Assembly: GCF_032854445.1 (NCBI RefSeq)
Contig: NC_088304.1
Location: 36,131,551-36,195,550, forward strand
Length of the DNA stretch: 64,000 nt
DNA from: Liolophura sinensis
Lineage: Eukaryota; Mollusca; Polyplacophora; Chitonida; Chitonidae
Direction: 5' to 3'
Made by a program: the position numbers and the translations under genes. Under the pieces are notes generated by a model, which saw nothing but the letters and a program-made list of their open reading frames with translations, did not search any database and was not told the DNA's origin. The first letter of the stretch is position 1. Every line of letters begins with the position of its first letter. Shown one piece after another: positions 10,050 through 42,300 of the stretch.

Positions 10050-11165
10050 GTATCCTCAATCTTAGCATAGCAACATAGCCAAACCATCCTCAGTCCAACA
10101 CATAGTATCCTCAGTCCAACACAGGTATAGTATCCTCAGTCCAACACATAATATCCATATATTACACATATATATCCATAATGTCCAACACAGGTATAGT
10201 ATCCTCAGTCTAACACATGGCATCCTCAGTCCAACACATAGTGTCCTCAGTTCAATACAGGTATAGTATCCTCAGTCTAACACATAGTATCCTCAGTCCA
10301 ACTCAGGTATAGTATCCTCAGTCCTACAAAAGTACATGTATAGTATCCTCAGTCTAGCACAGTCCTACATGTACACGGGTATAGTATCCTGAGTCCTCAG
10401 TGCAATACAGGCATAGTATCCTCAGTCCAACTTGGGTATAGTATCCTCAATCCTACAAAGGTGATCCTAAGTCCAAAAAACACTTTCCTCAGTCCAACAC
10501 AGGTATAGTATCCTTAGTCCAAAACAGGTATAGCATCCTGTGTCCAACACATAGTATCCTCAGTCTAACACCGGCATACCATCCTCAGTCCAGCACACAG
10601 TATGCTCAGTCCAACACATAGCATCCTCAGTTCAGCACACAGTATGTTCAGTCCAACACATAGTATCCGCAGTCCAGCACATAGCATCCTCAGTCCAGCA
10701 CACAGTATGCTCAGTCCAAAACAGGTATAGCATCCTGTGTCCAACACATAGCATCCTCAGTCCAACACCGGCATACCATCCTCAGTCCAGCACACAGTAT
10801 GCTCAGTCCAAAACAGGTATAGCATCCTGTGTCCAACACATAGCATCCTCAGTCCAGCACACAGTATGCTCAGTCCAACACATAGTATCCTCAGTCCAGC
10901 AAATAGCATCCTCAGTCCATCACATAGCATCCTCAGTTCAGCACACAGTATGTTCAGTCCAACACATAGTATCCTCAGTCCAGCAAATAGCATCCTCAGT
11001 CCATCACATAGTATCCTCAGTCCAAAACAGGTATAGCATCCTGTGTCCAACACATAGTATCCTCAGTCCAACACTGGCATAGCATCCTCAGTTCAGCACA
11101 CAGTATGCTCAGTCCAACACATAGTATCCTCAGTCTAACAATGGCAGTCTAACTTAGTATCATCA
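10050..11165. repeat. Minisatellite based on TATCCTCAGTCCAACACA
   Basis: Some forty irregularly spaced (about 19-38 bp) variants of the word TCCTCAGTCCAACACAGGTA fill this stretch, with related sequence trailing to about 11480. Larger blocks (for example 10720-10800 compared with 10800-10870) are repeated too, showing higher-order duplication. It lies 1.4 kb or more beyond the stop codon of the minus-strand kinase gene. The antisense Leu/Cys-rich ORFs over it (10565-10747, 10757-11053) come from the repeat. Confidence 0.9.
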
Positions 11166-11858
11166 GCCAACCACTGGCACGGATTCCCAGGCCCAGTGCA
11201 TCCTCAGACACAACACAGCACTCAGAAAATGTAACAACCTTGTTTTTCTCAGCCAAACTGGAGGAACTGTATCCTGTGGCACACATAGGTTTGGTGCATA
11301 CATCTGTATTTTTAAGACAAATTTAGTCCATGAATCCTCAGTCTAAAACCAGGCACTATTCCCTCAGACAAATAAATGCACTGTATCCTTCAACACACAA
11401 TGTACCAGCATATCCTCAGTCTTACACATTGACTTTGTACTCAGTCAGATTACATCCCTTCATTTTCAGACAAATACAGGCTCTACATCCTCAGGTAAAT
11501 TCCATTCAAAGCCTTCAAACTGAAATACACAGACATGAGACAGAACATTACAAGATTTATTTCACAGTTATTATCTTTTAAACTGCAGGATTTAACAATT
11601 TCTTTTCTTCTGACATTTTGTACGTGAATGTACATAAACATGTATAAAACAATCATCAGATACACAAATTATTCAGACGAACCTTCACTGGCTCCTTTGG
11701 CTGGAATACAGCTCTGGGCAGTTTGAAGTAAGAAAGTTGATAGGTAAATGAGGAAGGCCACGGATTTACTCTGGACTCTCCAGTTCTCTCCACACAGAAG
11801 CCTCAAGGCTGTTATCAGGTTGTGTAATTATAAATGAAAAATTCTGGGAACTCTACTA

Positions 11859-11938
11859 CAGGTAGGTTGTAATCTTGTTTGTAATCTACAGGTAGGTTGT
11901 AAACTTGTTTGCAATCTACAGGTAGGTTGTAATCTTAA
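11859..11938. repeat. 30-bp direct repeat, three copies
   Basis: CAGGTAGGTTGTAA occurs at 11859, 11889 and 11919, a period of exactly 30 bp, with TCTTGTTTG-type sequence between copies. Confidence 0.9.
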
Positions 11939-12014
11939 GTTGTGGTCGCTTGTTATCACATATTTTTTTGTTTCTATTATATTACCAAATCAAATAAATG
12001 AAGCAAATTATTCT

Positions 12015-12243
12015 GTTATTTACTTATTTGATTGGTGTTTTACTCCATACTCAAGAATATTTCACTCATACAACGACGGCCAGCATTATGGCTGGAGGAA
12101 ACCATGCTAACCCACGACCATCCGTAGGTTGCTGGTGGACCTCACGGACAGCCAGCGAGGAAACCAGCTAGACTTGAGCTCACAGCAATTGCATTGGTGA
12201 GAGGCACCACTCAGGCTTGCTAACCCCCTCGACCACGAAGGCC
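12015..12243 (-). mobile_element. SINE (tRNA-derived family A), near full length
   Basis: In reverse orientation this matches the full copy at 53740-53995: TTGATTGGTGTTTTACTCC, CAAGAATATTTCACTCATAC, GGCCAGCATTATGG, CCACGACCATCCG, AGGTTGCTGG and a tRNA-like head ending in GGCCC. It is well diverged and lies about 300 bp beyond the stop codon of the kinase gene, so it could be in that gene's 3' UTR. Confidence 0.85.
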
Positions 12244-12532
12244 CAAATTATTCTGTCAAAATAATTGACTGATACTGCAGGTTGAAATTTTATAGTACAA
12301 TCCACTACAGGATCCTCACTGGAACCATGTAGCTTTGCTGGCTGAAACTACAAGCAATAATTTAAGTAAAAACAATGCACATAATGTATACTTCTACTGT
12401 CTGTAGAACTATAACTAAATAATTTGTTAACATCATCACTGTTAGCAAGCCCAAAAAAAAAAACTACAAAAAAAAAAAAAACACTCATGTAAATTGCTAA
12501 CTACATGTATTCAATGTGAGGTGTACATGAAT

Positions 12533-15500
12533 CTATAACTGGGAACATACATCATCTGTGTCTGCGGTACCGGAACAGCTGCCATTTTCCAGAGCTTGTG
12601 TCATGGCTAATGAGAAGAAATCTTCAGGGACTACGTCTTTAGGACACACCTGGAAACAAATTAAAACAGAATTGCTGGCATAAGACAGGCCTCGTGGAAT
12701 GCATTCATGTAAACATACAGCTGCTCTACAAAAATACATGTAGCCTGATCCGACTGCACTAGCTGTTTGATTACAGACAAACAGATGGCCGAACAAACAG
12801 ATGGCCGAACAAACAGACGGCCAAACAAACAGATGGCCAGACAAATGGATGGCCAAACAGACGGATGGACAGACAAACAGATGGCCAGACAAACAGATGG
12901 CCAGACAAACAGATGGCCAGACAAACAGATGGACAGACAAACAGATGGCCAGACAAATGGATGGCCAAACAGACGGCCAGACAAACGGATGGACAGACAA
13001 ACAGATGGACAGACAAACAGCCTCTCGCATTTTTTGCCCAAGGGACAAAGAGAATGTACTTTGCTACTATGCAACATCTGACACACTTTAAAATACTTTT
13101 ATTTAATACTTAATATTTTGTTCAGCACTATTAAATCATGCAGTTAGATAGAGTATAATATTACTAATTACATGCAGTGCAATTATTTATTTACTGATTA
13201 CTACGGTATAATGTCATTATCACATAATCAAATATTTGTTTTAAAATAACAGTGGTCAAGTTTGTTCGGAGAAAAATGGGAGTTCCCAGAGGAAACTGCA
13301 GTGCTCTGAATAAACCAGAGTTCCCAGGGGAAACTGCAGTGCTCTGAATAAACTAGAGTGCCCAGAGGAAACTGCAGTGCTCTGAATAAACTAGTGTGCC
13401 CATAGGAAACTGCAGTGCTCTGAATAAACTAGAGTGCCCAGAGGAAACTGCAGTGCCCTGAATAAACTAGGATGCCCGTAGGAAACTGCAGTGCTCTGAA
13501 TAAACTAGAGTGCCAGGAGGAAACTGCAGTGCTCTGAATAAACTAGAATGCCCAGAGGAAACTGCAGTGCTCTGAATAAACTAGAGTTCTTGGATGAAAC
13601 TACAGTGCTCTGAATAAACTAGAGTGCCCAGAGGAAACTGCAGTGCTCTGAATAAACTAGCGTGCCCTGAGGATACTGAAGTGCACAAAAAGAAATGGAG
13701 AGTCACTCTAGAGGCCACTTTAGTACCCAAAGAAAACTGGATGGCACAGAGAAAACATCTGGCCTTCTCACTTAAAGCTGAAACTGAAGGATTAAGAGCT
13801 AGAATTGAGCAACTCTATCTGACCCGCTTAATAAGAGCACTAGACCAGTTCGATTGTTTCCAGCTGAAAGACAATACACCTCTGACAGCATAACTTACCT
13901 TCCTCTCTATGAGGTCTGTAAAGTTGAGCTCCTTGAAAAAGGAAAGATGCTGTAATTCATAGACATCCGTCAACCTCTGGAGGGGACTTTTTGTTAGCAA
14001 CTATCAACAAAGAAATACAAATTGATCTTTTCGATTTATTTCTTTGATTGCTGTTTTGTAGATGTGCTCAGCTCAAGAATTTTTCGTTTATTTTTTAAAA
14101 GAAAATAATTATTTATCAATGAGATAACATATACCGTGAATCTGACGCAAAAGTATCTCAAATCACGTTAACAGGACCACCTGCATTCAGATGCACTACA
14201 GTTAACATGCACTCATACAAACTCTGCTCTCTACTTGTAGCAAAACAACACAAAACAAACTTTTCTCATCTTTCACCGAGTCATTGAGGCATGAAATTGC
14301 CACAGACTTTCAGGGGAGATAATTTTCTGGAGCACAAACCTCTGATAGTCTATAATATGGTGAATCCACTTTTTTCTTTCAAGATGAATAAGAATCTAGT
14401 TATTAAGAAAATATGGGGACAGATTCATATATCTATAAATGATTGAATCTCTGTATGTGTGTGCTTGGTAATTAGTTTATTTACCACTTTACTATGAGAT
14501 GTCAAAATAAGGGTTAAATCAAAGGAAAAGTCGACAAACAGATGTCCCGTGCTATTATGTCAGTCCATCCTTGTGAGTTTCTCCACAACTTCTTGGTATT
14601 GTTATGTCGAGCAGTACAAAACTTTTCAAAAAAGAAAAAGTAGCAGCTGGAGAAGTGGTCTGATGAGATTTGCCTTACCCTTGAGATTTGCCTTACCCTT
14701 GAGATGGCTTCCTGGGCCTGGTAGTTGAGGTGGTATGGCACTTTGAATTCCCACTCAAACACTTTAGAGGCCATCAGTTTGTGATTCTCAGCTCCATCCA
14801 CAGGATACTGGCAGGAAAATCAAGGCTTTTATATCACCTCATGTGTATATTTCATTTTGGTGTACCTGTGATAATACTGGTAGATCACTGTAGGTACATG
14901 CAGTACACATGCACTGTAACATTACAGCAAAAAACAATCTGCACCTTGTTTTTGTACACTAGCCTGTCACTATCTCCACTACAGCAAAGGACTTGTGGCC
15001 TTTCTACCTTTAGGAATATGCCCATCATTTAGATGATTTAGAGTTCACCACAGAATGACAAACCAAAGGTGACAATCGCCCATGTCTTAACTCACCTTAC
15101 CAGCTAGCATGACAAACATGAGAATACCCAGAGACCACCAATCTGCTGCATGTCCATATGGGTAAACTGCCAGCACCTCCGGGGCTGAAACACACGTCAA
15201 TATCAATCAGCACACAGTTACAACACCGTGACCACTACACCTGAACAAGGCACAAGACTATGCATTTATAATGCAGCTTCAAATTCCATGCTTGATCTCA
15301 AGATGGAGCTAAGTAAGGATGACTTTCAAACTATTAGGTTCAGACAACTTCTCACACCCATCTGTGTACTGTAACATAACGAACAGTTCTCACACCAATC
15401 CATGTACTGTAATGTTCCACACACAGTTCTCAAAAATGAACTGTAATGTTCCACACACGGTTCTCAAAAATGCTGTAATGTTCCACACATAGTTCGCACA

Positions 15501-18500
15501 ATTACCCATGTACTGTAATGTTCCACGCACAGTTCTAATACCCATACCCATCCATGTACTCTAATGTTCCACACACGGTTATCATACTCACTCATGCACT
15601 GTAATGTTCCACACACCGTTATCATACTCACCCATGCACTGTAATGTTCCACACACGGTTATCATACTCATCCATGTACTGTAATGTTCCACACACAGTT
15701 ATCACACTCATCCAAGTACTGTAATGTTCCACACATGGTTATCATACTCACCCATGTACTGTAATGTTCCACACACTGTTATCATACTCATCCATGTACT
15801 GTAATGTTCCACACACAGCTCTCGCACTCACCCAAGTACTGTAATGCTCCACACACTGTTATCATACTCATCCATGTACTGTAATGTTCCACACACAGTT
15901 CTCACACTCACACAAATACTGTAATGTTCCACACACAGTTCTCACACTCACTGCTGTACTGTAATGTTCCACACACGGTTATCATACTCACCCATGTACT
16001 GTAGTGTTCCACACACAGTTCTCACACTCACCCAAGTACTGTAACGTTCCACACACGGTTACCACACTTACCCATGTACTGTAATATTCCACATACGGTT
16101 ATCATACTCATCCATGTACTGTAATGTTCCACACACAGTTCTCACACTTACTCATGCACTGTAATGTTCCACACACAACTCTCGCACTCACCCAAGTACT
16201 ATACACACGGCTATCACACTCACCTACGTACTGTAATGTTCCACACATGGTGCTCACACTCACCCACGTACTGTAATGTTCCACACAGTTCTTACACTCA
16301 CCCATGTACTGTAATGTTCCACACACGGTTACCACACTTACCCATGTACTGCAATGTTCCACACACAGTTATCACACTCACCCATGTACTGTAACGTTCC
16401 ACACACAGTTCTCACACTCACCCCTGTACTGTAATGTTTCACACACAGTTCTTACACTCACACATGTACTGTGATGTTCCACACACGGTTACCACACTCA
16501 CCCATGTACTGCAATGTTCCACACACAGTTCTGGTCTTTTCTCCAACCATCAACCACTTTGCCAAGCCAAAGTCTGTCACCTGCACATGACCTATGAACA
16601 TAGATGGAGAAGAAAAGCTTGTACATGTTACAAACAGTGTGATGCAGAGCACCCATGCTAGATTATATTTTTCAAGTTTCCTATACATGCATGAATAATT
16701 TCACAGTTTACCAGCAATTCTGTATTGCATCAATACAGTGCATACATCTAAACTTTTGATCAGAGTTGAAAGTTAGGTTGTGCACTTGATTTATGGTCAC
16801 AGAGATGGACATACACCTAAAAATTCTAACACTAAATTATACTGATTTCATAAAAACGTATTTGCATTTTAATATCATCACCAAGATCGCATCAAAAATA
16901 ATACTTTACGAAAATCTTAGCCCGTAAAAATGCACTAAAAAAATGACCTTAAAATGATGTATCTGATGGCAATACATGTTTTTCTGCAATATGTGTCACT
17001 TTATCCTACACCTGAGGGGAACCACAGTAATTAGACGCCATTGAAACTTACCATCTTCGTTGAACAGGATGTTTTCCATCTGAAAGCAGAGATAACATGC
17101 TATATATTTAAGGGTGTATTTAGCGTCTGTCTATGGGGTTACATGTACAGGGACTAGGTCGAGGGAACAACAATCAATGAGCTGTAGAAATTAAACAACA
17201 CTGTTTACATTCATTCTGACAAATCAATGTTGAATTAATAACACTCTCAACTGTATACATTATGAGCACCAACAGCTGAGGTTTTGGTTTTGTTGAATTG
17301 TGGTTTGCACAAATCTGGGTTTACAGTTAATTATCATGTCTCTCAGGTGGTCTGATTTAATGTACATGTACAGATGGTTTACAACATTTGCTCTCAAGTC
17401 TTGAGGTGCAAACCTATACTGTTAACTTAAGAGTACAGTACATTGTACCTTGATATCCCTGTAGATGACACCTGCTTTGTGAAGGTAATCTGAAAGGAAA
17501 CCACAAAAAATACATCAGGATTTTTCACATCCATTTTCCACATTGCACCTGGTGTTTGTCTTTCAGAAGCACACAAAGGTCGTAAAATATTTTCAAATGA
17601 CACTTTTGGTGCCATCACTGATGTTTTGTGATAAGAAATTGACCCCAACTCAAAAAAAAAAATAACTGTTTATTACAAGGCAGAAGAATCCATCAGAATA
17701 AAGTGAAATGTATCACTAGTAAAAAAAACTTTAGGAGAAATACATGAAATTCATGAAAATGGATCAAAAATGGATCACAAGAGGGCTGCACGAACCCCGA
17801 TAGATCTGACATGATCTGCGCACGGCCATGGCTGTTATTCCTTACCTAGGACCATTGCCATTTCTGCCACCAAGTACTTGACAAATACAGGAGGGAATCT
17901 CTCATGGTACCTCCACAGTGTAAACACATCCCCATACGGTTTGTAGTCCAACACTGCCCAATATATAACACACATCAGCAATAAGCAATAAGTCCACAGT
18001 GTAAACACATCCCCGTATGGCTTGTAGTCCAACACTGCCCAATATATAACAGAAATCAGCAATAAGCAATAAGTCCACAGTGTAAACACATCCCCGTACG
18101 GCTTGAAGTCCAACACTGCCCAATACATAACACACATCAGCAATAAGCAATAAGTCCACAGTGTAAACACATCCCCGTACGGCTTGTAGTCCAACACTGC
18201 CCAATATATAACACACATCAGCAATAAGCAATAAGTCCACAGTGTAAACACATCCCCTTACGGCTTGTAGTCCAACACTGCCCAATACATAACACACATC
18301 AGCAATAAGCAATAAGTCCACAGTGTAAACACATCCCCGTACGGCTTGTAGTCCAACACTGCCCAATATATAACACACCTCAGCAATGAGCAATAAGTCC
18401 ACAGTGTAAACACATCCCCGTACGGCTTGTAGTCCAACACTGCCCAATATATAACACACATCAGCAATAAGCAATAAGTCCACAGTGTAAACACATCCCC

Positions 18501-21500
18501 GTACGGCTTGTAGTCCAACACTGCCCAATACATAACACACATCAGCAATAAGCAACTCAAATATCAGTGCTATCCAATCATTTGACTGTGTGCCACTTCT
18601 TTATTACTTCATTACTAGTTGTACTTTTCAAGGTAACAACATCTCAAGTTTTGTGAGGATAAGTACATGTACTTATGGATGAACGATTATGACTTAGTTG
18701 TGGGTAATATTTCAGCAAATGGTGGCCAAAATCAGTTAATATGGTGGCACACATGAAGTGTATACGCATATATACATGATGATGTGAGTTAACGACTGTG
18801 CTCACCTACCTGTGTTCAGGACTGTGCTAACATGATCTTGCTCATGAAAAAGTATGTATAGGTTCATGGAAACTCACTAAAATGTACATGTATGGTCATG
18901 TGCCTGCTCACCAAAATGTGTGTACATCCGAGTTGACATGGATGCTCACCAAAATGTATGTAAAGGTGTGTTGGCATGGTTGCTCACCAAAGTGTGTCTT
19001 CATGTGTGCTGATATTTTGCTCACCAAAATATATGTACAGGGGTGGTGACTTGGTAGTTCACAAAAACGTATGAACAACAGTGTTAACATACCTGCTCAC
19101 CAAAATGTGTCGATGTGGCTGCTCACCAAAATGTACTTACAGCTGTGTTGACATGGCTGCTCACCAAAATGTACATACAGCTGTGCAGATATGGCTGCCC
19201 ACCAAATCTATGTTCATGCACAGCTGTGTTGACATGGATGCTCACCAAAATGTATGTTCATGCACAGTTGTGTTGACATGGATGCTCACCAAAATGTATG
19301 TTCATGCACAGCTGTGTTGACATGTATTCTCACCAAAATGTATGTTCATGCACAGCTGCGTTGACATGGATGGTAACCAAAATGTATGTTCATGCACAGC
19401 TGTGTTGACATGGATTCTCACCAAAATGTATGTTCATGCACAGCTGCGTTGACATGGATTCTCACCAAAATGTATGTTCATGCACAGCTGCGTTGACATG
19501 GATTCTCACCAAAATGTATGTTCATGCACAGCTCTGTTGACATGGAGGCTCACCAAAATGTATGTTCATGCACAGCTATGTTGACATGGAGGCTCACCAA
19601 AATGTATGTTCATGCACAGCTGTGTTGACATGGATTCTCACCAAAATGTATGTTCATGTACAGCTGTGTTGACATGGATTCTCACCAAAATGTATGTTCA
19701 TGTACAGCTGTGTTGACATGGATGCTCACCAAAATGTATGTTCATGTACAGCTGCGTTGACATGGATTCTCACCAAAATGTATGTTCATGTACAGCTGCG
19801 TTGACATGGAGGCTCACCAAAATGTATGTTCATGCACAGCTCTGTTGACATGGATTCTCACCAAAATGTATGTTCATGTACAGCTATGTTGACATGGATT
19901 CTCACCAAAATGTATGTTCATGCACAGCTGTGTTGACATGGATGCTCACCAAAATGTATGTTCATGCACAGTTGTGTTGACATGGATGCTCACCAAAATG
20001 TATGATCATGCACAGCTCTGTTGACATGGATGCTCACCAAATTGTATGTTCATGCACAGCTGTGTTGACATGGATGCTCACCAAAATGTATGTTCATGCA
20101 CAGCTCTGTTGACATGGATGCTCACCAAATTGTATGTTCATGCACAGCTGTGTTGACATGGATTCTCACCAAAATGTATGTTCATGCACAGCTGTGTTGA
20201 CATGGATTCTCACCAAAATGTATGTTCATGCACAGCTCTGTTGACATGGATGCTAACCAAAATGTATGTTCATGCACAGCTCTGTTGACATGGCTTCTCA
20301 CCAAAATGTATGTTCATGTACAGCTATGTTGACATGGATTCTCACCAAAATGTATGTTCATGCACAGCTATGTTGACATGGATTCTCACCAAAATGTATG
20401 TTCATGTACAGCTATGTTGACATGGATGCTAACCAAAATGTATGTTCATGTACAGCTGTGTTGACATGGATGCTCACCAAAATGTATGTTCATGCACAGC
20501 TGTGTTGACATGGATGCTCACCAAATTGTATGTTCATGCACAGCTGTGTTGACATGGATGCTCACCAAAATGTATGTTCATGCACAGCTATGTTGACATG
20601 GATGCTCACCAAAATGTATGTTCATGTACAGCTGTGTTGACATGGATTCTCACCAAAATGTATGTTCATGCACAGCTATGTTGACATGGATTCTCACCAA
20701 AATGTATGTTCATGTACAGCTACGTTGACATGGATGCTAACCAAAATGTATGTTCATGTACAGCTGTGTTGACATGGATTCTCACCAAAATGTATGTTCA
20801 TGCACAGCTGTGTTGACATGGATGCTCACCAAATTGTATGTTCATGCACAGCTGTGTTGACATTGAGGGGCACCAAAATGTATGTTCAAGCACAGCTGTG
20901 TTGACATGGATTCTCACCAAAATGTATGTTCATGTACAGCTATGTTGACATGGATCTTCAAAAAATGTATATTCATCTACAGCTGTGTTGACACTGCTGC
21001 TCACCAAATTGAATGTTCATGTACAGCTGTGTTAAGAGGGCGGCTCACCAAAATGTATGTTCATGTCCTGCAGTGTTATGTGCGCTGCAGTTTAGCAGGA
21101 TAGCAGGGGTAACAATACTTACCTATGTAGAGTTGTTTTTTAGACTGCCAGTATTCCTGTGTTTTCACCAAAAACGGGTGATCACCTAGCATAGACTGAA
21201 AAGAGGAAAGTACAGAATCAGGTATCAGAAATGTTGTTGACTGACATTTTACTCTGTCAAAAATCTTACTCTCGGACAAGGTAGACACAAGCCATAGATC
21301 CATGAACAAATGCATTTATTTACTTATTTATTTATTTGATTGGCATTTTATGCCATACTCTAGAATACTTCACTTATACGATGGGATTGGAGGAAACCAG
21401 GCAGAGCCCAGGGGAAGCCCACGATCATCCGCAGGCTGCTGACAGACCTTCCCACATTTGGCTGGAGAGGAAACCAGCAACAGCTGGACTTGAACTCACA

Positions 21501-24500
21501 GCGACTGCATTGGTGAGAGACTCCTGGGTCATTACACTGCGCTAGCGCGATAACTAACTGAACTGAACAGGTACATAAAAATTGAATCTTACCTATTTAC
21601 ATGTATGACACTTTCCCTGTTGCCGCTAATACATCTATTCCGTTATTTCAGACTAATGGATCTACCGGGGACGGTTCTTTAAAAGTATACTAAAAGTTAG
21701 ATCAGGCTTACACCTTAATACCACGCCTGACATAACACAAAACTAATGGCACTTATGTCCAGACTAAAGTTGATACCAGGCCTAAATGCAAATACACTTT
21801 TGAACTGGGGCGTGTTTAGTTGGCTTCACAGACAGTAGATGTCAGTTTGTAAATAGCAAAATTTCATTAAGTTGACCACTTACAGCGTAATAAAATACAG
21901 ATATGACTGCAATCTACAACAGAGGTAATAACTCTTGTTAGGATACCAACCTGTATAGCAGCTTCATCTTTACACTGCTGAACAGCTCCCTCTATGATGA
22001 TTGAGGTCTTGTTCATGATCTACAAATACCACACCCAACACATGAAGCAGCAACTACACTGTGACCTTAATGTCGCATTAATAAACATTCAACATTGTCT
22101 GCCATGTCCGCTTATAGCATTACAAGTGAGCCCAACACCACCTTCATCTCTTCCATGGCCGTCTCCCATGGAACAGCAGGCTAAAACGTATAAATTCAAC
22201 GGGGTAGAGAGTACCCGTGATGGGTTTATACCAGCAGGGTTTTACCTGGCTGTAATTTTTGTGGGGTCCAATGGACCCCATTCAAAAAAAAAAGTGGGGT
22301 CCCACATACCATAATGGGGGTCCAATGAATTTTAAATATATAAATGACCTATAAAAACACATATATATATTAATGACCTTTGTGCTCTGTTTATTTTTTT
22401 CAATGTTACAAAGACTTTTTTTTCTCTATCATTAAAGTCAAACTCTCAATTTATGTTATGATTATCACTTATATAGTCACTGAGTGGCCTTGAGTGACAG
22501 TCTGACTAGCTGTACACTGAGAGAACTTATTAATGAGGAAGTCTTTTTTTCATGTCAGTGAAAATTTTGGCTGCTCTGGCAAAGTCAAAGTGCTCCACAC
22601 TGCCACCGTTCAGTTTGATAAACATCAGCCTGTTTAGACGTTCTGGGGTTATCCGGTTCCTGGATTTGTTCTTGATTGCATTTTGGATGGAAAATCCCCT
22701 CTCACATGGGGCAGAGGAAACTGGAAACACCAATGCAATTTTGCCAAGTAACACAAAGTCAGGAAACTCTTCATTAAACCCTCTGATCAACACTTTCACA
22801 AAAGCTTCAAATGAAAGCACTTGGTATGACTTAGCTAAGTGTTTGAACTGTAGAAAGCTAGCTTCCATTCTCTCTTTGCTAACAAGCTCTTGGTAAAACT
22901 CTACTAACACACCAAACTGTTGCACGCCATAATCTAAGAGGTTAAGGTCACTAGGGTATCGCCCTGGGTTGAACAGGACATCAAAACATTCAAGCTTGTC
23001 TAACATGTCACTGGGAAACCTGTCATCAAGGTTACTGCTGAGCTTATCCAGGTAGGTATTTCTGATATCATTAAACCTTTGCCAGAGAATGTTATTATCT
23101 GTAACATTCACATCATGGTACTTGGCTGCCTCTCCTGTTGTTGGCATCTCGCCCAAAGCATTGAGGACTTCCGTAACCTTGCTGGACCCTTTTCTCACGT
23201 CAGTCGATGTGTTCTTGGCAGAAGTAACACTGTGTTTGATATGAGAAAGGTTGACGGCATCTTTCTGGAACGTAAGACTTAGAATTCCAATGGCTGTTAA
23301 AATGTCAATGAGGAGGGCTGTGAACAACAGGAACAATGAATTGCCAATAAATTTTGATAGTCCTACTGCTTTCGGTGATTTATCCGCATCAAGGGAGAGC
23401 ATAATGGCACAATAACTGTCTAGAATCATTTTCACAGCAGACTCAATAGAAAGCCAACGAACAGATGTGGGTTCCACAATTTGTTTTGCCTTGCCGTTAA
23501 GAACAGTTTGTAGTTGTCTTAGCTTATCGTATCTGACAGAAGAATCCCTGTAAAACTGATAGAGTGAGTGGATCATGGCATGATAGTTCTTGCAATACTC
23601 AATCGACTTTCCTGCCTGGGATACAGCTAAATTCAAACGGTGAGCCACGCAGTGGATATGGACAATATTCTTATTTCGATGGCCCAGTTTTGCGCCGAGT
23701 CCATTGTGACGACCAGTCATTACAGCCGCTCCGTCAGTTCCCAGACCAAGGACTTTCTGCATGTCATCCTGGCAAATGTTTTTCCTTTCCAAAACTGAGA
23801 CAATGGCAGTTTCAATACCAGCAGCGGTACCGTCTGTTATACGTTCATTGCCTATAAACGACACATGCACTTCTCCATTGTCAATGTATCTAACATAAAT
23901 GGCAATTTTTTTTTCCACTGATACGTCACAAGTCTCATCCAACATTATGCCAATGAAGTCACTTGCCTGTAATTTGTCAAGAATGCTTTCCTCCGCGACT
24001 TGTTCTATACACTCCTCCATTTCGGAGACAATTTGCGGCCGTTTGTAGTACTGCTTCACTTTTACACCATTCAAAACTTGCAAGTCCATTAGGTCTCGAA
24101 AATTATCAGCGGCAATGTTATTTTTGGCCATCACAAAAACAGTTCTTAGCTGAATCATTTCGCTGTTCATTTTTTCGTCGTACGTATTTTGGCTGACTTC
24201 GCGAACTTTTTTCATGGCCGCATCTGTGTGAGAGCGCGTATGTAAAATCTTTACAGCCTCGATGTGTTGTTTAGAATCTTGATGGCGGGACAATGCGCTG
24301 AGTTGAAAGTTACAACAGCCCTGGTTTGTTGTGAAGGAACTGTCAAAATTTGCATTTTTACAAGTGTTACATATCATACCCGAGGCCTGGGATTCGGAGT
24401 TGGCCCTACTCAACCATGGAAATTTCATTTGCCATTCGGTTTGAAACGATCGAGTGCGAGCCTGTTTAGGTGCCGATACCGCGTCTGTGTCAGTGTGTGA

Positions 24501-27407
24501 AGTTTTTTCAGCTTCAGCCGGCTCAGGTGATTCAGAATCACGCATGACAACAGTGTGGCTAGACTCGGATCCACGTCAGAGACGCGTGTTTTTTGCGTCC
24601 GGTAAATCCCTGTACCAGTATGACATACTGTGGAGTTACTGCCAAGGACAAAATTAATCTCTTCCACTGACATTTATCTATTGTCTAACTGTATCATCAA
24701 ATTAAAGACACCAGAAATGACACCACAGCTTATTCTGATGTGAGATCATATATACTCACTTCATCTAGGTCTAAAAGCAGATATGTTTAAGATCACCACT
24801 TGGAGAAAGTGATTGTCCATGGCAGTCCACATCAATGTTACATAACACTGGATAATAAAGGTGCTCTCCAAAATGGTCACGCCCATATTTTCAGGCTTTG
24901 TATGTCAATCATCATTCCTACTTGAGTAACCGAAATCCTTGACAATGCCTTCAGTTTTGCCTCACCAAATGACAGATTATCTAACACTTCAAAACTTGAC
25001 TCTTCCTAACTTCCAGCAAATGTACAGAATATTAATGTCAACATGTATGTTGTCTTTGAGAGACAGAGGAAGGCACAAGTAAACTCATCTTCTATACTGG
25101 TAACCCATGGTTTCACATTCACATTTTCCTGATGTGCCTTTGTTCTCACATGACTAATATCAGTATTTAATTGTTGGAATTACAGGCTGCTTACATAGTA
25201 AAGGCTTTACCTTCATTGCATATATAGCCTTTTCATCCTCACGTCGTACTTTGAGAACATTCCCAAAAGCACCTTTGGCAATAACACCTACCACCTGAAG
25301 GGTACAAAAACACACAGGCAAATTAGACGGGGATACTTGTTCTTGCTGATTATATTTACAAAATAAAGCAAAGTATGTATTGTTGCAAAACTGACACCTT
25401 CAATGGAAGTCCATTTCGAGTCAGGAATTGAGCTTGATAATCACGGTACAATATTATAACTTCTGTACTTGAGATTCACAACAATGCCATGTCAGAACAT
25501 GTGAATTTTATAATCTCATTAACTTAATAATTTGGACTCTTTTTGCCCTAAACTTGGGTGCCAACAAGAGGTACAAAAAATTGTCCTCACAGTACCTCAT
25601 AGCCCAGTTCATCCAAGTCTCCCTGCAAAGGAAATTCCGGCAGGAAGAGCGCCTCCACCAGAGGGATGCGCCTCTGAGTCGTGGATACTTTTGGTGCCTC
25701 TCTGAATTTTGCCTTGCGGATATCATGACTTGATCCCAATTTAAACAGCCGCTGGCTACTGCGAGATTTAGATCTCATAAAGTCACCATCAGCTGACAGA
25801 AACTGGAAATGAAAGAACACAGAAGTATTAATGGGATACTAAAACAGTGGTTAATTTCAATAATATCAAAAAAAAAAAAAAAAATGGCATCTCTGGTGAA
25901 AATAAACTTGCCTCAAGTGGGTAATAGAGGGGTCAAAATGATATCTTGAGTTCTTCAGATTGAGAACCTGGTTCAAACCCAGCACGTTCCTTTACATCTT
26001 TTTCAGGTTTTTTCTTCTTTTTTCGTTCATATTTTTACTCTTCAGCATATAATTTATGCAGAGCGCACAGTGCCAACCACAGGAATTGCTGTCCACAACA
26101 GCTACATGTACATGTATATATACAGCCTAACACTGCTATCTGGGAGCAATATTTATTTTCTTTTTACTGGTCTTTACACAAGCCCCAATGGACATTATAC
26201 ACAGATGCCTGCAGTTCAAATCCAGGTAATTCTTGCCAATCTCTTTTTCCCATTATCATGAAATTTATAGACATCAGGCTACCAGAAGTCGTTCTTTCAC
26301 TTTTCTATACCTTTCCATGTTATCTTTCACCCCATTGTCTGCTTGCGGCTGCCTCATGGGAGTGATGTGCCCGCATGTGTGTGCTCTCAAATAATTTCCG
26401 ATTATTATCAGACCTAGTTCTCAAATAATCTTCTCTTGTTTATTTTCCTATACCTTCCCTTTTCATCTTTTACCTCCTCATCTCCTTGCCACTGCCCTAG
26501 GCCAGAGAACTGTTTGTATCGTTTACAGTTACATGTAGCCTACAAGATTACACACATTGTGCAATCAACACTTTCTGATAATTATGCTGGCATGACTGAT
26601 AGCACAAAACCCTTCCTGTATTTCAGTCACACAAAATTCACTAAAAATGCCATGAAGTCAAATTTCTTAACCTTTTCAAAATAACCACAGTCACTGCTGA
26701 TTAGGTTTGCCAGCAGCCAGCAGATGGTCGTGGATTTTCCCCCACGCTCTGCCCGCTTTCCTCCCACCATAATCGAGGCCTTCCACCGTAAAGAACCAAT
26801 GTTTTGTGGGTTTGTTGTTGATGACTTCGGAAGGACCCGCAAGCAACCAAATGATTTTCTTGCTAGGTACCGCAGGTTTTCGAGCACTTCCGAAAGCAAC
26901 GTGGCAGTTGTGTCATGTGCCTAGCACCGATGACCATGTAGTTTTCAGCTCTGCTGGATTTACTAGCGATTGGAAGAGGGAACATCTGGCCGAGATGAGC
27001 ATTTCGGTCAACTACGAATACGGACAGACAATTTTTATCCGCCCCAACATTGATGATGGACAGCATGTAAAGCAGGTACAGTTATATGACAGGTAGCATT
27101 GTTTGCATCAGGGCCGTTATCCTATAGTATGAAGAGACGGTCGGTCAGAGCTAGTTAGAAGTCTAATTTCTGATTTAATGAAATCGTCCTATTATCGTTA
27201 CAGCCACTCATCACATGATGTGGAAGTTTTGTGGAGCTGTCAGACTGTTGTCAGAGTGTCACTACGCATTCGTGCAGAACTTATCAAGTATTAATATAAA
27301 TATAGTCAGAACTGTTAGGCCTTATCATGTTGTAGTTGTTGTATTACCTGGGTGTCCGGCAGAGACAATGACTTTCTCAGCGGCAGCTTGTTGTTACTGT
27401 TCCCCAT
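12533..27407 (-). CDS. RSKR: RSKR/SgK494-type serine/threonine protein kinase (13 exons, complete)
   Basis: Exons in transcript order: 27348-27407, 25596-25802, 25211-25294, 21951-22019, 21123-21195, 17846-17953, 17449-17489, 17052-17079, 16502-16591, 15096-15184, 14697-14807, 13899-14000, 12533-12649. All joins are GT-AG and phases agree, giving about 392 aa. Exon 1 codes [12 protein letters not shown], a likely N-myristoylation start. FLPEFP (residues 73-78) precedes the kinase domain, as in vertebrate RSKR (known family feature). Visible motifs: Gly loop AKGAFGNV (95-102), Lys117, helix-C Glu136, catalytic YRDIK with Asp212, Asn217, DFG (230-232), CGTLQYMAPE (247-256), DWWSLG (268-). All catalytic residues are present, so an active kinase is inferred; substrate unknown. 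AGC/S6-kinase related. The length is close to vertebrate RSKR. Introns hold minisatellites, SINEs and a hAT transposon; three splice boundaries are tandemly duplicated (see repeats). Exon 1 assignment rests on phase and the donor CAG/GTAATA. Confidence 0.92.
12774..13022. repeat. 16-bp minisatellite (ACAAACAGATGGCCAG)
   Basis: About fifteen copies of ACAAACAGATGGCCAG and variants with GGACAG or AATGG changes lie in the last kinase intron. All six frames stay open over it, which produces several false ORFs (Cys/Leu/Val-rich on the minus strand, Gln/Thr/Asp-rich on the plus strand). Confidence 0.95.
13277..13690. repeat. 38-bp minisatellite, about eleven copies
   Basis: GGAAACTGCAGTGCTCTGAA recurs every 38 bp (13291, 13329, 13367 and onward to about 13672), separated by TAAACTAGAGTGCCCAGA-type sequence. 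It sits in the last kinase intron, about 200 bp from the donor of exon 12. Confidence 0.95.
14679..14714 (-). repeat. 18-bp duplication of the exon 11 splice donor
   Basis: On the minus strand the end of kinase exon 11 and its donor (CTCAAGG/GTAAGGCAAAT) occur twice in direct succession. Donor 1 ends the exon at 14697 and donor 2 at 14679. The step is 18 nt, so use of the second donor keeps frame and adds six residues (VRQISR) after AISR. Both copies have the same GTAAGG donor. Confidence 0.9.
15351..16527 (-). repeat. 40-bp minisatellite carrying the exon 9 splice donor, about 29 copies
   Basis: On the plus strand GTACTGTAATGTTCCACAC recurs every 40 bp (for example GTAATGTTCC at 15601 and 15641). 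Read on the minus strand, each unit contains a copy of the last ~20-25 nt of kinase exon 9 (TGTGGAACATTGCAGTACAT) joined to its donor GG/GTGAGTGTG. The unit at 16488-16527 is the true exon end; the others fill the following intron almost to exon 10. Most copies keep GTGAGTG or a close variant. Confidence 0.95.
17909..18556 (-). repeat. 81-bp minisatellite carrying the exon 6 splice acceptor, eight copies
   Basis: Period is exactly 81 bp (GTAGTCCAACACTGCCCA core at 17943 and every 81 bp to 18510). On the minus strand each unit holds the end of the intron (ATGTATTGGGCAG), the acceptor, and about 41-44 nt of exon 6 (codes [14 protein letters not shown]). Predicted first exonic bases are 17953, 18034, 18115, 18196, 18277, 18358, 18439 and 18520; only the unit at 17953 continues directly into the rest of exon 6. 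Because 81 is divisible by three, earlier acceptors keep the kinase frame. The unit at 18277 has TAC changed to TAA, a stop (18258-18260). Confidence 0.95.
18905..21075. repeat. 44-bp minisatellite, about 45 copies
   Basis: The unit GTTGACATGGATGCTCACC plus AAAATGTATGTTCATGCACA repeats every 44 bp (GACATGGATG at 19231, 19275, 19319 and on). Copies before about 19200 and after 20860 are more degenerate. The array fills kinase intron 5 up to 48 bp from the end of exon 5. On the minus strand each unit carries a donor-like TTTTG/GTGAGC and an acceptor-like CAACACAG, but it does not match the neighbouring exon. Confidence 0.95.
21309..21553 (-). mobile_element. SINE (tRNA-derived family A) in kinase intron 4
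   Basis: Reverse orientation: TTATTTGATTGGCATTTTAT, ATACTTCACTTATACGATGG, GGAGGAAACCAGGCAGAGCC, CACGATCATCCGCAGGCTGC, then the tRNA-like head with TTGAACTCACAGCGACTGCA (B-box region) and GCGCTAGCGCGATAACTAAC. It is the second best preserved copy in the window. Its internal open frame is not a gene. Confidence 0.9.
22235..24612 (-). mobile_element. hAT DNA transposon, complete, nested in kinase intron 3
   Basis: The left end CAGGGTTTTACCTGG (22235) and the reverse complement of the right end, CAGGGATTTACCGG (from 24612), form a short terminal inverted repeat of the hAT type (starts CAG). The bases TACCAG lie directly outside both ends, consistent with part of an 8-bp hAT target-site duplication. 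The element is about 2.38 kb and carries one transposase gene. It lies between kinase exons 3 and 4 in the same orientation as the gene. Confidence 0.8.
22530..24545 (-). CDS. hAT-family transposase, single intact ORF of 671 aa
   Basis: Catalyses cut-and-paste transposition (family knowledge). Visible: acidic N-terminus; a zinc-finger-like segment with CNTC (59-62) and later His pair SRHQDSKQH (87-94), of TTF/BED type; hAT catalytic-core motifs LDETCDVS (Asp203) and [11 protein letters not shown] (Asp271); [10 protein letters not shown] (298-307); TSVRWLS; and the C-terminal hAT dimerisation segment [16 protein letters not shown] followed by [12 protein letters not shown]. No frameshift or stop interrupts it, so it may be recently active. 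Resembles the transposases related to ZNF862/C17orf113-like vertebrate genes. The flanking terminal repeats argue for a transposon rather than a domesticated gene. It lies in a kinase intron and is read with it. Confidence 0.92.
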   Translation of the reverse strand: MRDSESPEPAEAEKTSHTDTDAVSAPKQARTRSFQTEWQMKFPWLSRANSESQASGMICNTCKNANFDSSFTTNQGCCNFQLSALSRHQDSKQHIEAVKILHTRSHTDAAMKKVREVSQNTYDEKMNSEMIQLRTVFVMAKNNIAADNFRDLMDLQVLNGVKVKQYYKRPQIVSEMEECIEQVAEESILDKLQASDFIGIMLDETCDVSVEKKIAIYVRYIDNGEVHVSFIGNERITDGTAAGIETAIVSVLERKNICQDDMQKVLGLGTDGAAVMTGRHNGLGAKLGHRNKNIVHIHCVAHRLNLAVSQAGKSIEYCKNYHAMIHSLYQFYRDSSVRYDKLRQLQTVLNGKAKQIVEPTSVRWLSIESAVKMILDSYCAIMLSLDADKSPKAVGLSKFIGNSLFLLFTALLIDILTAIGILSLTFQKDAVNLSHIKHSVTSAKNTSTDVRKGSSKVTEVLNALGEMPTTGEAAKYHDVNVTDNNILWQRFNDIRNTYLDKLSSNLDDRFPSDMLDKLECFDVLFNPGRYPSDLNLLDYGVQQFGVLVEFYQELVSKERMEASFLQFKHLAKSYQVLSFEAFVKVLIRGFNEEFPDFVLLGKIALVFPVSSAPCERGFSIQNAIKNKSRNRITPERLNRLMFIKLNGGSVEHFDFARAAKIFTDMKKRLPH
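26695..26800 (+). mobile_element. SINE fragment (family A, middle part) in kinase intron 1
   Basis: CAGATGGTCGTGGATTTTCC, ACGCTCTGCCCGCTTTCCTC and CCACCATAAT match the central body of the SINE at 53740-53995 in forward orientation. Both ends are missing or unrecognisable. Confidence 0.7.
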
Positions 27408-39344: not shown

Positions 39345-42300
39345 TTACCCGTAATATGGCATATGTTCCATAGGTCTTTGAATGATGGTGTTGTTTACGG
39401 GTTGTTGCCCATCCATCATTGCATCGTGTGGTTGAATATTGTTTGTGTCAGATGAAGGATTTGTTAACGCAATAGGTCGATCTACGATCTTAACTGGACT
39501 GTCATAAATATGACCCATGGAACTGGCGACGTGTGGCTTTGTCTGCCTCCGGCTCATCACACCTTTATTGTCAAAGTGCGACCCAATATTTATAACCGTG
39601 TTAATACTGACTACACCTGCTCTTTCCCTGAAACCCGACACTTGACTTCCAGAATTCATTTCACTGCCTGAGAAGGTTTCTGACCTGTCAACAACTTTTT
39701 CTGACAAGCCGTTGGGGTTCATAATACCAGGGTTGTTCAAATGCATTTTTTTCGCCAAACTACTGCTATCAAAATTTAGGAAGATGTTGATTTGATTTTT
39801 GGAGTTTGTTAATGTTCCATCTACGGGACTTAATATACTGCTGTCATGGGTATACGGGGTTTCATTGCTTGGACAGTCCGGCTTATGAACACCTTCGTCC
39901 ACATCTTTATGGTTTCCCTCATTTTCACCAAAATTCTCATTGTGTTCTTCTCCACTTGAGTTTGTGTCCCTAGATTGTGAGTTATCATCTTGCTTACTTT
40001 CAGAAGAAGTTTCACCGTGTGAGTCATTAGGTTTTGAGTTACGTTCTTTACTTTCAGCTGAGTCCTTGACCCCACTTTCAGCAGAATCCTTCTTGCCACC
40101 ACTTTCATTTTCTGACGAAGTCTCTCCGCTTGAGTCATTAGGTTTTGTGTCACGTTCCTTACTTTCAGCTGAGCCTTCCTTGACACCACTTTCAGCAGAA
40201 TCCTCCTTGCCACCACTCTCGTTTTCTGAAGAAGTCTCTCCGCTTGAGTCATTAAGTTTTGAGTCACGTTCCTTACTTTCAGCTGAGCCTTCCTTGACAC
40301 CACTTTCAGCAGAATCCTTCTTGCCACCACTCTCATTTTCTGAAGAAGTCTCTCCACTTAAGTCATTAGGTTTTGAGTCACGTTCCTTACTTTCAGCTGA
40401 GCCTTCCTTCACACCACTTTCAGCAGAATCCTCCTTGCCACCACTCTCGTTTTCTGAAGAAGTCTTTCCGCTTGAGTCATTAAGTTTTGAGTCACGTTCC
40501 TTACTTTCAGCTAAGCCTTCCTTGACACCACTTTCAGCAGAATCCTTCTTGCCACCACTCTCGTTTTCTGAAGAAGTCTCTCCGCTTGAGTCATTAAGTT
40601 TTGAGTCACGTTCCCTTACTTTCAGCTGAGCCTTCCTTGACACCACTTTCAGCAGAATCCTTCTTGCCACCACTCTCGTTTTCTGAAGAAGTCTCTCCGC
40701 TTGAGTCATTAAGTTTTGAGTCACGTTCCTTACTTTCAGCTGAGCCTTCCTTGACACCACTTTCAGCAGAATCCTCCTTGCCACCACTCTCATTTTCTGA
40801 AGAAGTCTCTCCGCTTGAGTCATTAAGTTTTGAATCACGTTCCTGACTTTCAGCTGAGCCTTCCTTGACACCACTTTCAGCAGAATCTTTCTTGCCACCA
40901 CTTGCATTTTCCGAAGAAGTCTCTCCGCTTGTGTCATTAAGTTTTGAGTTGTGATCCTTACTTTCAGCAGAATCCTTCTCTACACCAATTCCATTTTCTA
41001 ATGAAGTTTCTCTGCTTATACCAGAATGTTTTGAGTTTCTCTCCTCCTTCCTTTCAGCAGAGTCCTTGATTCCTCCACTTCCATTTTCTGAGGAAGTTTC
41101 TCCTTGTGTGTCTGTAGGTTTTGAGTTATGTTCTTCATTTTCAGCAGAACCCTTGGCACCACTTTCACTAGAATCTTTATTGCCACCATCTGGATTTGCT
41201 AAAGAAGTTTCTCCGCTTGTGTCTGTAGGTTTTGAGTCACGTTCATTGCCTTCAACTGACTCTTTCTTGACATCACTTTCAGCAGAATCCTTCTTGCCAC
41301 CACTCTCATTTTCTGAAGAAGTCTCTCCGCTTGAGTCATTAGGTTTTGAGTCACGTTCCTTACTTTCAGCTGAGCCTGCCTTGACACCACTTTCAGCAGA
41401 ACCCTTTTTGCCATCACTTTCATTTTCTGAAGAAGTCTCCCCGCTTGTGTCAGTGTGTTTTGAGTTGTTTTCCTTACTTTCAGCAGAATCCTTCTCGACA
41501 CCACTTCCATTTTCTAAAGAAGTCTCGCCGCTTGTGCCAGTGGGTATTGAGTTTATCTGTTTCTTACTCTCTGCAGAATCTTTTTTGCCACCCCTTCCAT
41601 TTTCTAATGATGTTTCAGCGTGTGTGTCAGTAGGTTTTGAGTTGTGTTCGTTACCTTCAGTCTCCTTCTCGACACCACTTCCATTTCCTGAAGAAGTTTC
41701 TTCGCTGGAGTTTCTCTCTTCTTTCCTTTCAACAGAATCCTTCTTGCCATGAGTTACATTTTCTCCATTCATGTCGGCAGGCTTTGGGTTATCTTCTTCC
41801 GTATTTACACGAGATCCCTCATTGCTGTCCTTTTCATTTCCGTCTTCGTCATTTTCTGCAGAATCATTATTGATGTTGTCTCCTTTTACCGAGGAAGATG
41901 GTTCATTTGTGCTTTCATCTTTGTTTTTCGTGTTGTTGTTTTCCATATTTTCGCCCGATTCCTTATCTTCGTTCTCTCGGTTGTGTCCAACTTGATTGTC
42001 ATTGGGATCACTAGCCGGAATGTGATCTCCTGTACTAGTGACGTTGTCTTCTTCTGAACTGCCATCTGCGTTGTTTTGGCTGTGTTCACTTTGATAATCA
42101 GTAGGATGACCAACTGGAGTGTGATCTCCTATACCAATGACGCTGTCTTCTCCTGAACTGTTCTCTCCGTTGTGTTGGTTGTGTTCACCTTTACTGTTCT
42201 TAGGATGACTAACTGGAATGTTATCTCCTGTACCAGTGACGCTGTTTTCTTTTGAACTCTCCTCTCCGTTGTGTTGGCTGTGTTCACCTTGATTGTCATT

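Follow-up and report, generated by a model that had tools for sequence, protein, structure and literature searches.

Tandem arrays over exon–intron boundaries in a chiton kinase gene and at other splice junctions of the same genome

We analysed 64,000 nucleotides (nt) of the chiton Liolophura sinensis (Mollusca; assembly GCF_032854445.1, contig NC_088304.1, forward-strand positions 36,131,551 to 36,195,550; hereafter the window), which hold a protein kinase gene on the minus strand in which three of the 26 splice junctions are tandemly multiplied. At the acceptor of exon 6, a minisatellite with an 81-bp unit has copied both the acceptor and the start of the exon within the gene, as an earlier note on this DNA had claimed. 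Tandem repeats over exon–intron boundaries have been named mirages in amphioxus (PMC3087553), and the arrays described here are very probably of that type: nearly neutral minisatellites, commonest near chromosome ends, whose exon-proximal splice site would be the one used.

The kinase gene and its multiplied junctions

The gene, exon 6 and its array are laid out as follows, with positions counted from the first letter of the window and a slash marking each splice junction. Tandem Repeats Finder (TRF), a script and inspection of the letters were used for the array.

11466 to 27407, minus strand: host gene, an S6K-related AGC-type kinase with 14 exons and 404 amino acids (aa), its exons joined by hand
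21123 to 21195, minus strand: exon 5, the upstream partner, ending CTACATAG/GTAAGT; exon 6 is entered in phase 1
17846 to 17953, minus strand: exon 6 with its exon-proximal, putatively functional acceptor and the donor CCTAG/GTAAGG (404-aa frame; gapless against RSK)
17912 to 18555, minus strand: array of eight 81-bp units at the exon 6 acceptor (TRF, script and letters)
18034 to 18196, minus strand: upstream acceptors 18034, 18115 and 18196, open in frame and adding 27, 54 and 81 residues (frames read to 17846)
18277 to 18520, minus strand: upstream acceptors 18277, 18358, 18439 and 18520, which run into a TAA (frames read to 17846)

With exon-proximal splicing, all 13 introns are GT-AG and the exons form a single uninterrupted 404-aa frame. 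Pfam assigns this protein a Pkinase domain (7.5e-58), and its best relatives of solved structure are RSK kinase domains (2.6e-54), to which exon 6 aligns without gaps. On these matches the kinase domain is of the AGC class and closest to S6K and RSK. We take the kinase to resemble the SgK494/RSKR-S6KL type; fly S6KL has been described as a relative of SGK494 (PMC4351882). No close paralogue was present among the candidates scored (103 of 222), which comprised the gene's own exons and more distant kinases, the longer matches outside the gene being about 20–35% identical.

The earlier note had described eight tandem 81-bp units, each holding the end of intron 5 and the start of exon 6, and both TRF and the script search agree with it. 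TRF gives 17912–18555 a period of 81, 8.0 copies, 96% matches, 0 indels and a score of 1204. The script placed eight occurrences of GGGCAG/TGTTGGAC on the minus strand; in these the exon sequence begins at 18520, 18439, 18358, 18277, 18196, 18115, 18034 and 17953, every spacing being 81. The note's coordinates and translation were right, and its account of the unit, a polypyrimidine/AG intron end followed by about 14 codons of exon, stands overall; but the unit consists of 38 nt from the end of the intron and 43 nt from the start of exon 6, the final exonic base differs from that of true exon 6, and the pyrimidine tract is weak (TGTGTGTTATATATTGGGCAG). GGGCAG is kept in all eight units. CTGAT, which we take to be branch-point-like, is present in seven of them with its A 22 nt ahead of the exon, and the unit of 18358 has CTGAG. 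By these motifs every unit looks like a complete acceptor module, albeit with a poor pyrimidine tract.

Identity between units ranges from 91.4 to 100%. Two inner units are identical, while the copy in true exon 6 carries two synonymous changes private to it (AAA for AAG and TAT for TAC), a pattern that fits homogenisation of the interior of the array and not of its edge. The exact period over eight units, together with the zero copies found in shuffled introns (see below), places the array beyond chance. A DNA search of the whole assembly, in which very common words were skipped, found the array DNA at one place. That the repeat number or the entire array is an artefact of assembly is scarcely credible: the array was read from one assembly only, and one amphioxus mirage was seemingly misassembled in a draft genome (PMC3087553), but the units here carry private substitutions, both edges pass into other intron or exon sequence, and like arrays with other sequences lie at other junctions.

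The same anatomy bears on whether the array is a step towards intron gain, in which an internal unit would become a small exon and the units flanking it introns. Its architecture is like that of a duplication in a potato gene (PMC4974935) and of a model proposed for amphioxus globins (PMC3087553). The unit, however, has no good donor, since its best GT, in the intronic part, reaches a score of 1.0 and the other eight GTs score negative, whereas the potato case is reported to have had a cryptic GTAAG (PMC4974935). We regard intron gain as exceedingly unlikely.

Reading the frame from each upstream acceptor to 17846 bore out two further statements of the note, namely that 18034, 18115 and 18196 are open with the additions listed above, and that a TAA in the unit of 18277 ends the reading from that acceptor and from the three further upstream. 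Judged by homology, only the exon-proximal acceptor at 17953 gives an uninterrupted kinase domain. In the isoform with 27 additional residues, the Pkinase score falls from 196.4 to 187.0 bits and the match is split in two.

Two more junctions of the gene are multiplied, both of them donors and both beyond what the note had described, as are the arrays at other junctions of the genome reported below. These features, and one array that was not counted among them, are as follows.

15402 to 16530, minus strand: second array, with units of about 40 bp that carry the last bases of exon 9 and its donor, ATGG/GTGAGT (TRF and scan)
16502 to 16591, minus strand: exon 9; of the donor copies, that at 16501 adjoins the exon, and ATGG is joined to CCCCGGAG (MAPEV)
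14664 to 14705, minus strand: third case, an 18-bp duplication of the exon 11 donor (14696), with TCTCAAGG/GTAAGGCAAA present twice
19139 to 21065, minus strand: array of 44 units of 44 bp in intron 5, not counted as a splice-site array (TRF and scan)

The exon 9 donor is present 28 times, with 27 further copies of which the last lies slightly past the TRF range, and 19 of the 27 retain the GT. The second exon 11 donor, if used, would stay in frame and add six residues (VRQISR). An automatic scan for copies of 30 bases recovered two of the three cases and missed exon 11, because its 18-bp unit is shorter than the scan window. Near copies within 3 kb were found for 422 of 1500 random positions in the gene and for 54 of 1215 exonic positions; given the share among random positions, three multiplied junctions are unsurprising by area.

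Many units of the 44-bp array in intron 5 contain a donor-like TTTTGGTGAG. We considered this array as a set of exon 5 donor copies and rejected it, the scan having found no copy of the donor region. Intron 3 holds, at 22530–24575 on the minus strand, an open reading frame (ORF) of 681 aa with hAT dimerisation, DUF4371 and C17orf113-type zinc finger domains, which looks like a hAT-like transposon insertion. A degenerate array of 21-bp repeats at 10086–11140 lies beyond the kinase stop codon, presumably in the 3' untranslated region.

Junction arrays elsewhere in the genome

We surveyed 139 short exons, comprising 40 kinase exons (with flanks of 900 nt each) out of 138 listed matches, 50 kinesin exons out of 132 and 49 myosin exons out of 81 (the latter two with flanks of 380 nt each). 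The exons were picked by hand down the rankings as short and with few stops, and some qualifying rows were skipped, partly for overlap with neighbours; the sample is non-random, and several of its exons share genes. Exon boundaries were placed with a rough weight matrix whose values came from recall, and cut-offs of 1.5 for acceptors and 1.0 for donors retained 125 and 117 junctions, respectively, from the 139 exons. A 30-base window over each junction was then compared with 380 nt on the intron side, allowing at most 7 mismatches. Another 30 long kinase exons (L002 to L031) served for repeat coverage only.

Tandem copies of the junction were found in the adjoining intron for 3 of 125 acceptors and 6 of 117 donors (9 of 242 junctions, about 4%), and with a 36-base window for two acceptors and six donors. 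Introns shuffled by dinucleotide gave zero copies in 20 rounds. A tenth case, the kinesin exon L118, was found by eye, the scan having taken a decoy for its donor. The ten cases lie at separate places and differ in sequence.

Acceptor arrays: L035 (kinase), L076 (kinesin) and L148 (myosin, at least 12 copies in the stretch read)
Donor arrays: L047 and L056 (kinases); L086, L100 and L118 (kinesins); L135 and L157 (myosins)

Arrays that lie near exons and do not include the junction were inspected and left out (L066, L069, L096, L117, L127, L140 and L153); further arrays flagged near exon ends were judged by the junction-copy scan alone. At L157 (C3:25740507-25741461), the last 115 nt or so of a myosin exon and about 9 nt of intron are repeated at a spacing of 124 nt; the stretch read includes four identical donors, and the array continues to the edge of that stretch. 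At L118 (C9:5671748-5672699, minus strand of the record), a KIF15-like kinesin exon has three donors at intervals of 30 nt. All of them keep the frame, and a switch between them would lengthen the motor domain by 10 or 20 residues.

The decoys show no clear sign of selection for or against their splice signals. The GT or AG is kept in 77 of 89 decoys across 11 arrays (the exon 11 and L118 arrays stand outside this count), including all seven decoy acceptors of exon 6. Ranked from the lowest rate of change, the decoy dinucleotide stands at 14 of 29 positions for donors and 5 of 29 for acceptors. Changes in the GT and AG are about as frequent as in the bases around them, as expected for neutral copies.

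Minisatellites are unevenly placed along the contigs. Across 169 loci, tandem repeats with a period of at least 10 make up 21.6% of bases in the outermost 1 Mb of the contigs, 18.9% at 1–2 Mb and 2–6% deeper (Spearman −0.47, p about 1e-10; loci that adjoin one another in the same gene are not independent). The 40 short kinase exons, taken by themselves, showed no significant trend with distance (p = 0.19). The window lies on a contig of 36.6 Mb, 0.44–0.50 Mb short of the contig end, and has a repeat share of 24%. The ten junction arrays have a median distance to the ends of 3.6 Mb, as against 10.8 Mb for the other 129 short-exon loci (p = 0.016); five of the ten lie more than 5 Mb from the ends, and two of these more than 10 Mb.

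Three observations concern other loci. At 39345–47910 on the minus strand of the window are two very long repetitive ORFs of 2434 and 544 aa, with acidic hydrophilic repeats and periods of 99 and 114 bp, which possibly encode a secreted matrix-type protein. A haemocyanin gene at C8:37880506-37891931 (G000) shows eight tandem matches to the haemocyanin beta-sandwich within 11.5 kb, an eight-unit architecture that we take to be the molluscan type and that agrees with a place of the genome among molluscs. For the GFP family, considered as a mark of amphioxus, there was no match in the genome, in a type of search that cannot show absence.

Which copy is spliced

The earlier note had left two readings of the exon 6 array side by side: alternative isoforms, or strict choice of the last acceptor among near-identical ones. 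The latter is favoured, both by the intact kinase alignment and by the four of seven upstream acceptors that lead to a stop. At L118, likewise, the exon-proximal donor joined to the next exon gives a gapless match to KIF15 (4bn2, 6.7e-41), while with the decoy 30 nt downstream, which the matrix prefers, the Kinesin score is 86.6 bits instead of 101.5.

We propose that the arrays would grow as ordinary minisatellites do, by unequal exchange or slippage, and most often near chromosome ends. A duplication that crosses a junction would leave an intact copy beside the exon, and the array could persist. The spliceosome would then take the exon-proximal copy, most simply by exon definition, with the nearest acceptor pairing with the donor at the far end across the 108 nt of exon 6, and the upstream copies would stay in the intron as nearly neutral decoys. 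Use of the acceptors at 18034–18196 would instead yield kinases with a disrupted hinge and helix D region, and use of those at 18277–18520 would yield transcripts with premature stops.

Meaningful use of the upstream in-frame acceptors would make the array a generator of isoforms with 27, 54 or 81 additional residues, the repertoire being set by array length. The unit of 81 nt does equal 27 codons, three upstream acceptors are open, CAG is kept in all seven upstream copies and CTGAT in six of them, and duplicated sites are reported to be used in human IFI6 and in the potato RdRp gene (PMC4526556, PMC4974935). Against this, the insert would duplicate the hinge and place a hydrophobic stretch in a conserved fold, with the lowered and split Pkinase match described above; four of the seven upstream acceptors reach a stop; and amphioxus mirages seem, from the published accounts, not to disturb splicing (PMC3087553, PMC3902484). 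The period itself, which the earlier note had called coding-frame, lends no help. The main spacings are divisible by three in four of 13 arrays (81, 18, 66 and 30) and break the frame in nine (40, 37, 64, 32, 67, 65, 73, 34 and 124), which is about the share expected by chance and gives no sign of frame selection. With the same architecture present elsewhere at mostly frame-breaking periods, the 27-codon period looks like chance, and we rejected divisibility by three as a sign of coding function. An isoform generator is, in our estimate, improbable.

Less probable still is that the decoys control expression, such that splicing into the TAA unit and beyond would produce degraded transcripts and array length would tune the amount of kinase. 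The first four acceptors that the polymerase meets (18520 to 18277) all read into the TAA, and the periods of nine of the 13 arrays would shift the frame. The TAA, however, is a single base change private to one of the eight units, and the decoy signals are neither clearly lost nor clearly preserved relative to their surroundings.

Several points weigh against use of the exon-proximal copy and near-neutrality of the rest. We infer the acceptor actually used from protein homology, and the join to a neighbouring exon was checked in one of the ten sampled cases (L118). By the rough matrix, the functional exon 6 acceptor scores 1.3 and its decoys 1.0–2.1; at L056 all five decoys outscore the exon-proximal site, as do the three AG-keeping decoys at L076. 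With decoys that score as high or higher, something besides local sequence must decide. In the potato gene, a two-copy duplication is reported to have led to use of both acceptors and to a new intron (PMC4974935), and repeat units of human IFI6 are reported to serve as further donors (PMC4526556). Alternative acceptor use at exon 6, even at an appreciable level, is possible, though on the sequence it is not favoured. Lastly, junctions have copies less often (9 of 242) than do positions 45 nt (13 of 242) or 90 nt (24 of 242) into the intron, and junction arrays may be under some negative selection.

These last counts also lend no support to the idea that junctions are hot spots of minisatellite birth, since nearby intron positions are richer in copies and nothing indicates that junctions attract repeats. 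Positions 30 nt inside the exon have copies in 3 of 242 cases. Most simply, minisatellites would arise at any position, and an array that crosses a junction would be mostly tolerated, as one copy always adjoins the exon.

Relation to known mirages and meaning

The exon 6 array fits, by its structure, the known class of mirages. Those reported in amphioxus lie in Adh3, the globins BflGb6 and BflGb9, troponin C and, imperfectly, PGBD5; the BflGb6 mirage has 6 and 3 units in two haplotypes, and reverse transcription PCR (RT-PCR) suggested that regular splicing was undisturbed (PMC3087553, PMC3902484). As described, these too are minisatellite-like arrays over a 5' or 3' boundary in which many units carry AG or GT and the boundary unit lies outside the homogenisation of the interior. 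In the chiton, the unit that spans the boundary includes exon sequence at exon 6 and likewise in the exon 9 donor array; boundaries of both kinds are affected in the genome, with three acceptors and six donors by scan and L118 by eye; and many but not all units keep their AG or GT (the 77 of 89 decoys given above). The host differs in not being a cephalochordate. The amphioxus studies examined splicing and length variation, whereas the mollusc yields a rate over sampled junctions, read from DNA alone.

Related cases are known in other organisms. The minisatellite unit of the human gene IFI6 (6-16) is 12 bp long. As here, its units carry a donor at the end of an exon; the extra donors there make other isoforms, whereas in the mollusc acceptors are copied as well and use of the decoys is, from the sequence, only conceivable (PMC4526556). 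The potato RdRp duplication resembles exon 6 in that it crosses a boundary and includes the branch site, pyrimidine tract, AG and exon start. It is reported to comprise two copies with a cryptic GTAAG and a new intron supported by RNA-seq, in contrast to the eight copies and lack of a good donor here (PMC4974935). Internal repeats in human duplicated genes likewise include boundary minisatellites that alter gene structure, in what is described as a survey of segmental duplications with variable repeats and new introns, not of ladders of a single site (PMC2812944). Minisatellites near alternative exons of C. elegans were set aside as a different matter, being described as regulatory motifs rather than copied splice sites (PMC4039745).

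No report of mirages in molluscs was found among the papers listed from open-licence PubMed Central, which is weak evidence, the term never having been sought apart from amphioxus. Three things appear to be new: the phylum of the host, a first and approximate rate for the junctions sampled, and the presence of three cases in one gene.

We give roughly even credence to the broader reading that mirages are not confined to cephalochordates, that several percent of junctions are multiplied here, and that they form a natural experiment showing a choice by exon definition and not by order of transcription or by strength. Extrapolated from a non-random sample, the number of multiplied junctions would probably be in the thousands genome-wide. 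In donors the copy next to the exon stands at one side of the array and in acceptors at the other, which would make the whole set a large experiment on splice-site choice. How the choice falls among splice sites of the same sequence is difficult to investigate unless duplications are engineered. Here natural ones are at hand: conserved kinase, kinesin and myosin exons are flanked by as many as 28 donors or by 12 or more acceptors in a row, and homology of the proteins suggests which of the copies has to be spliced. They also carry a warning for gene annotation, in that a simple junction caller chose a decoy at L118. If the exon-proximal copy wins at both ends of exons, exon definition in an invertebrate would be strongly supported; otherwise, the arrays would be a source of possibly polymorphic isoforms. 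The findings suggest that mirages can arise wherever minisatellites are dense.

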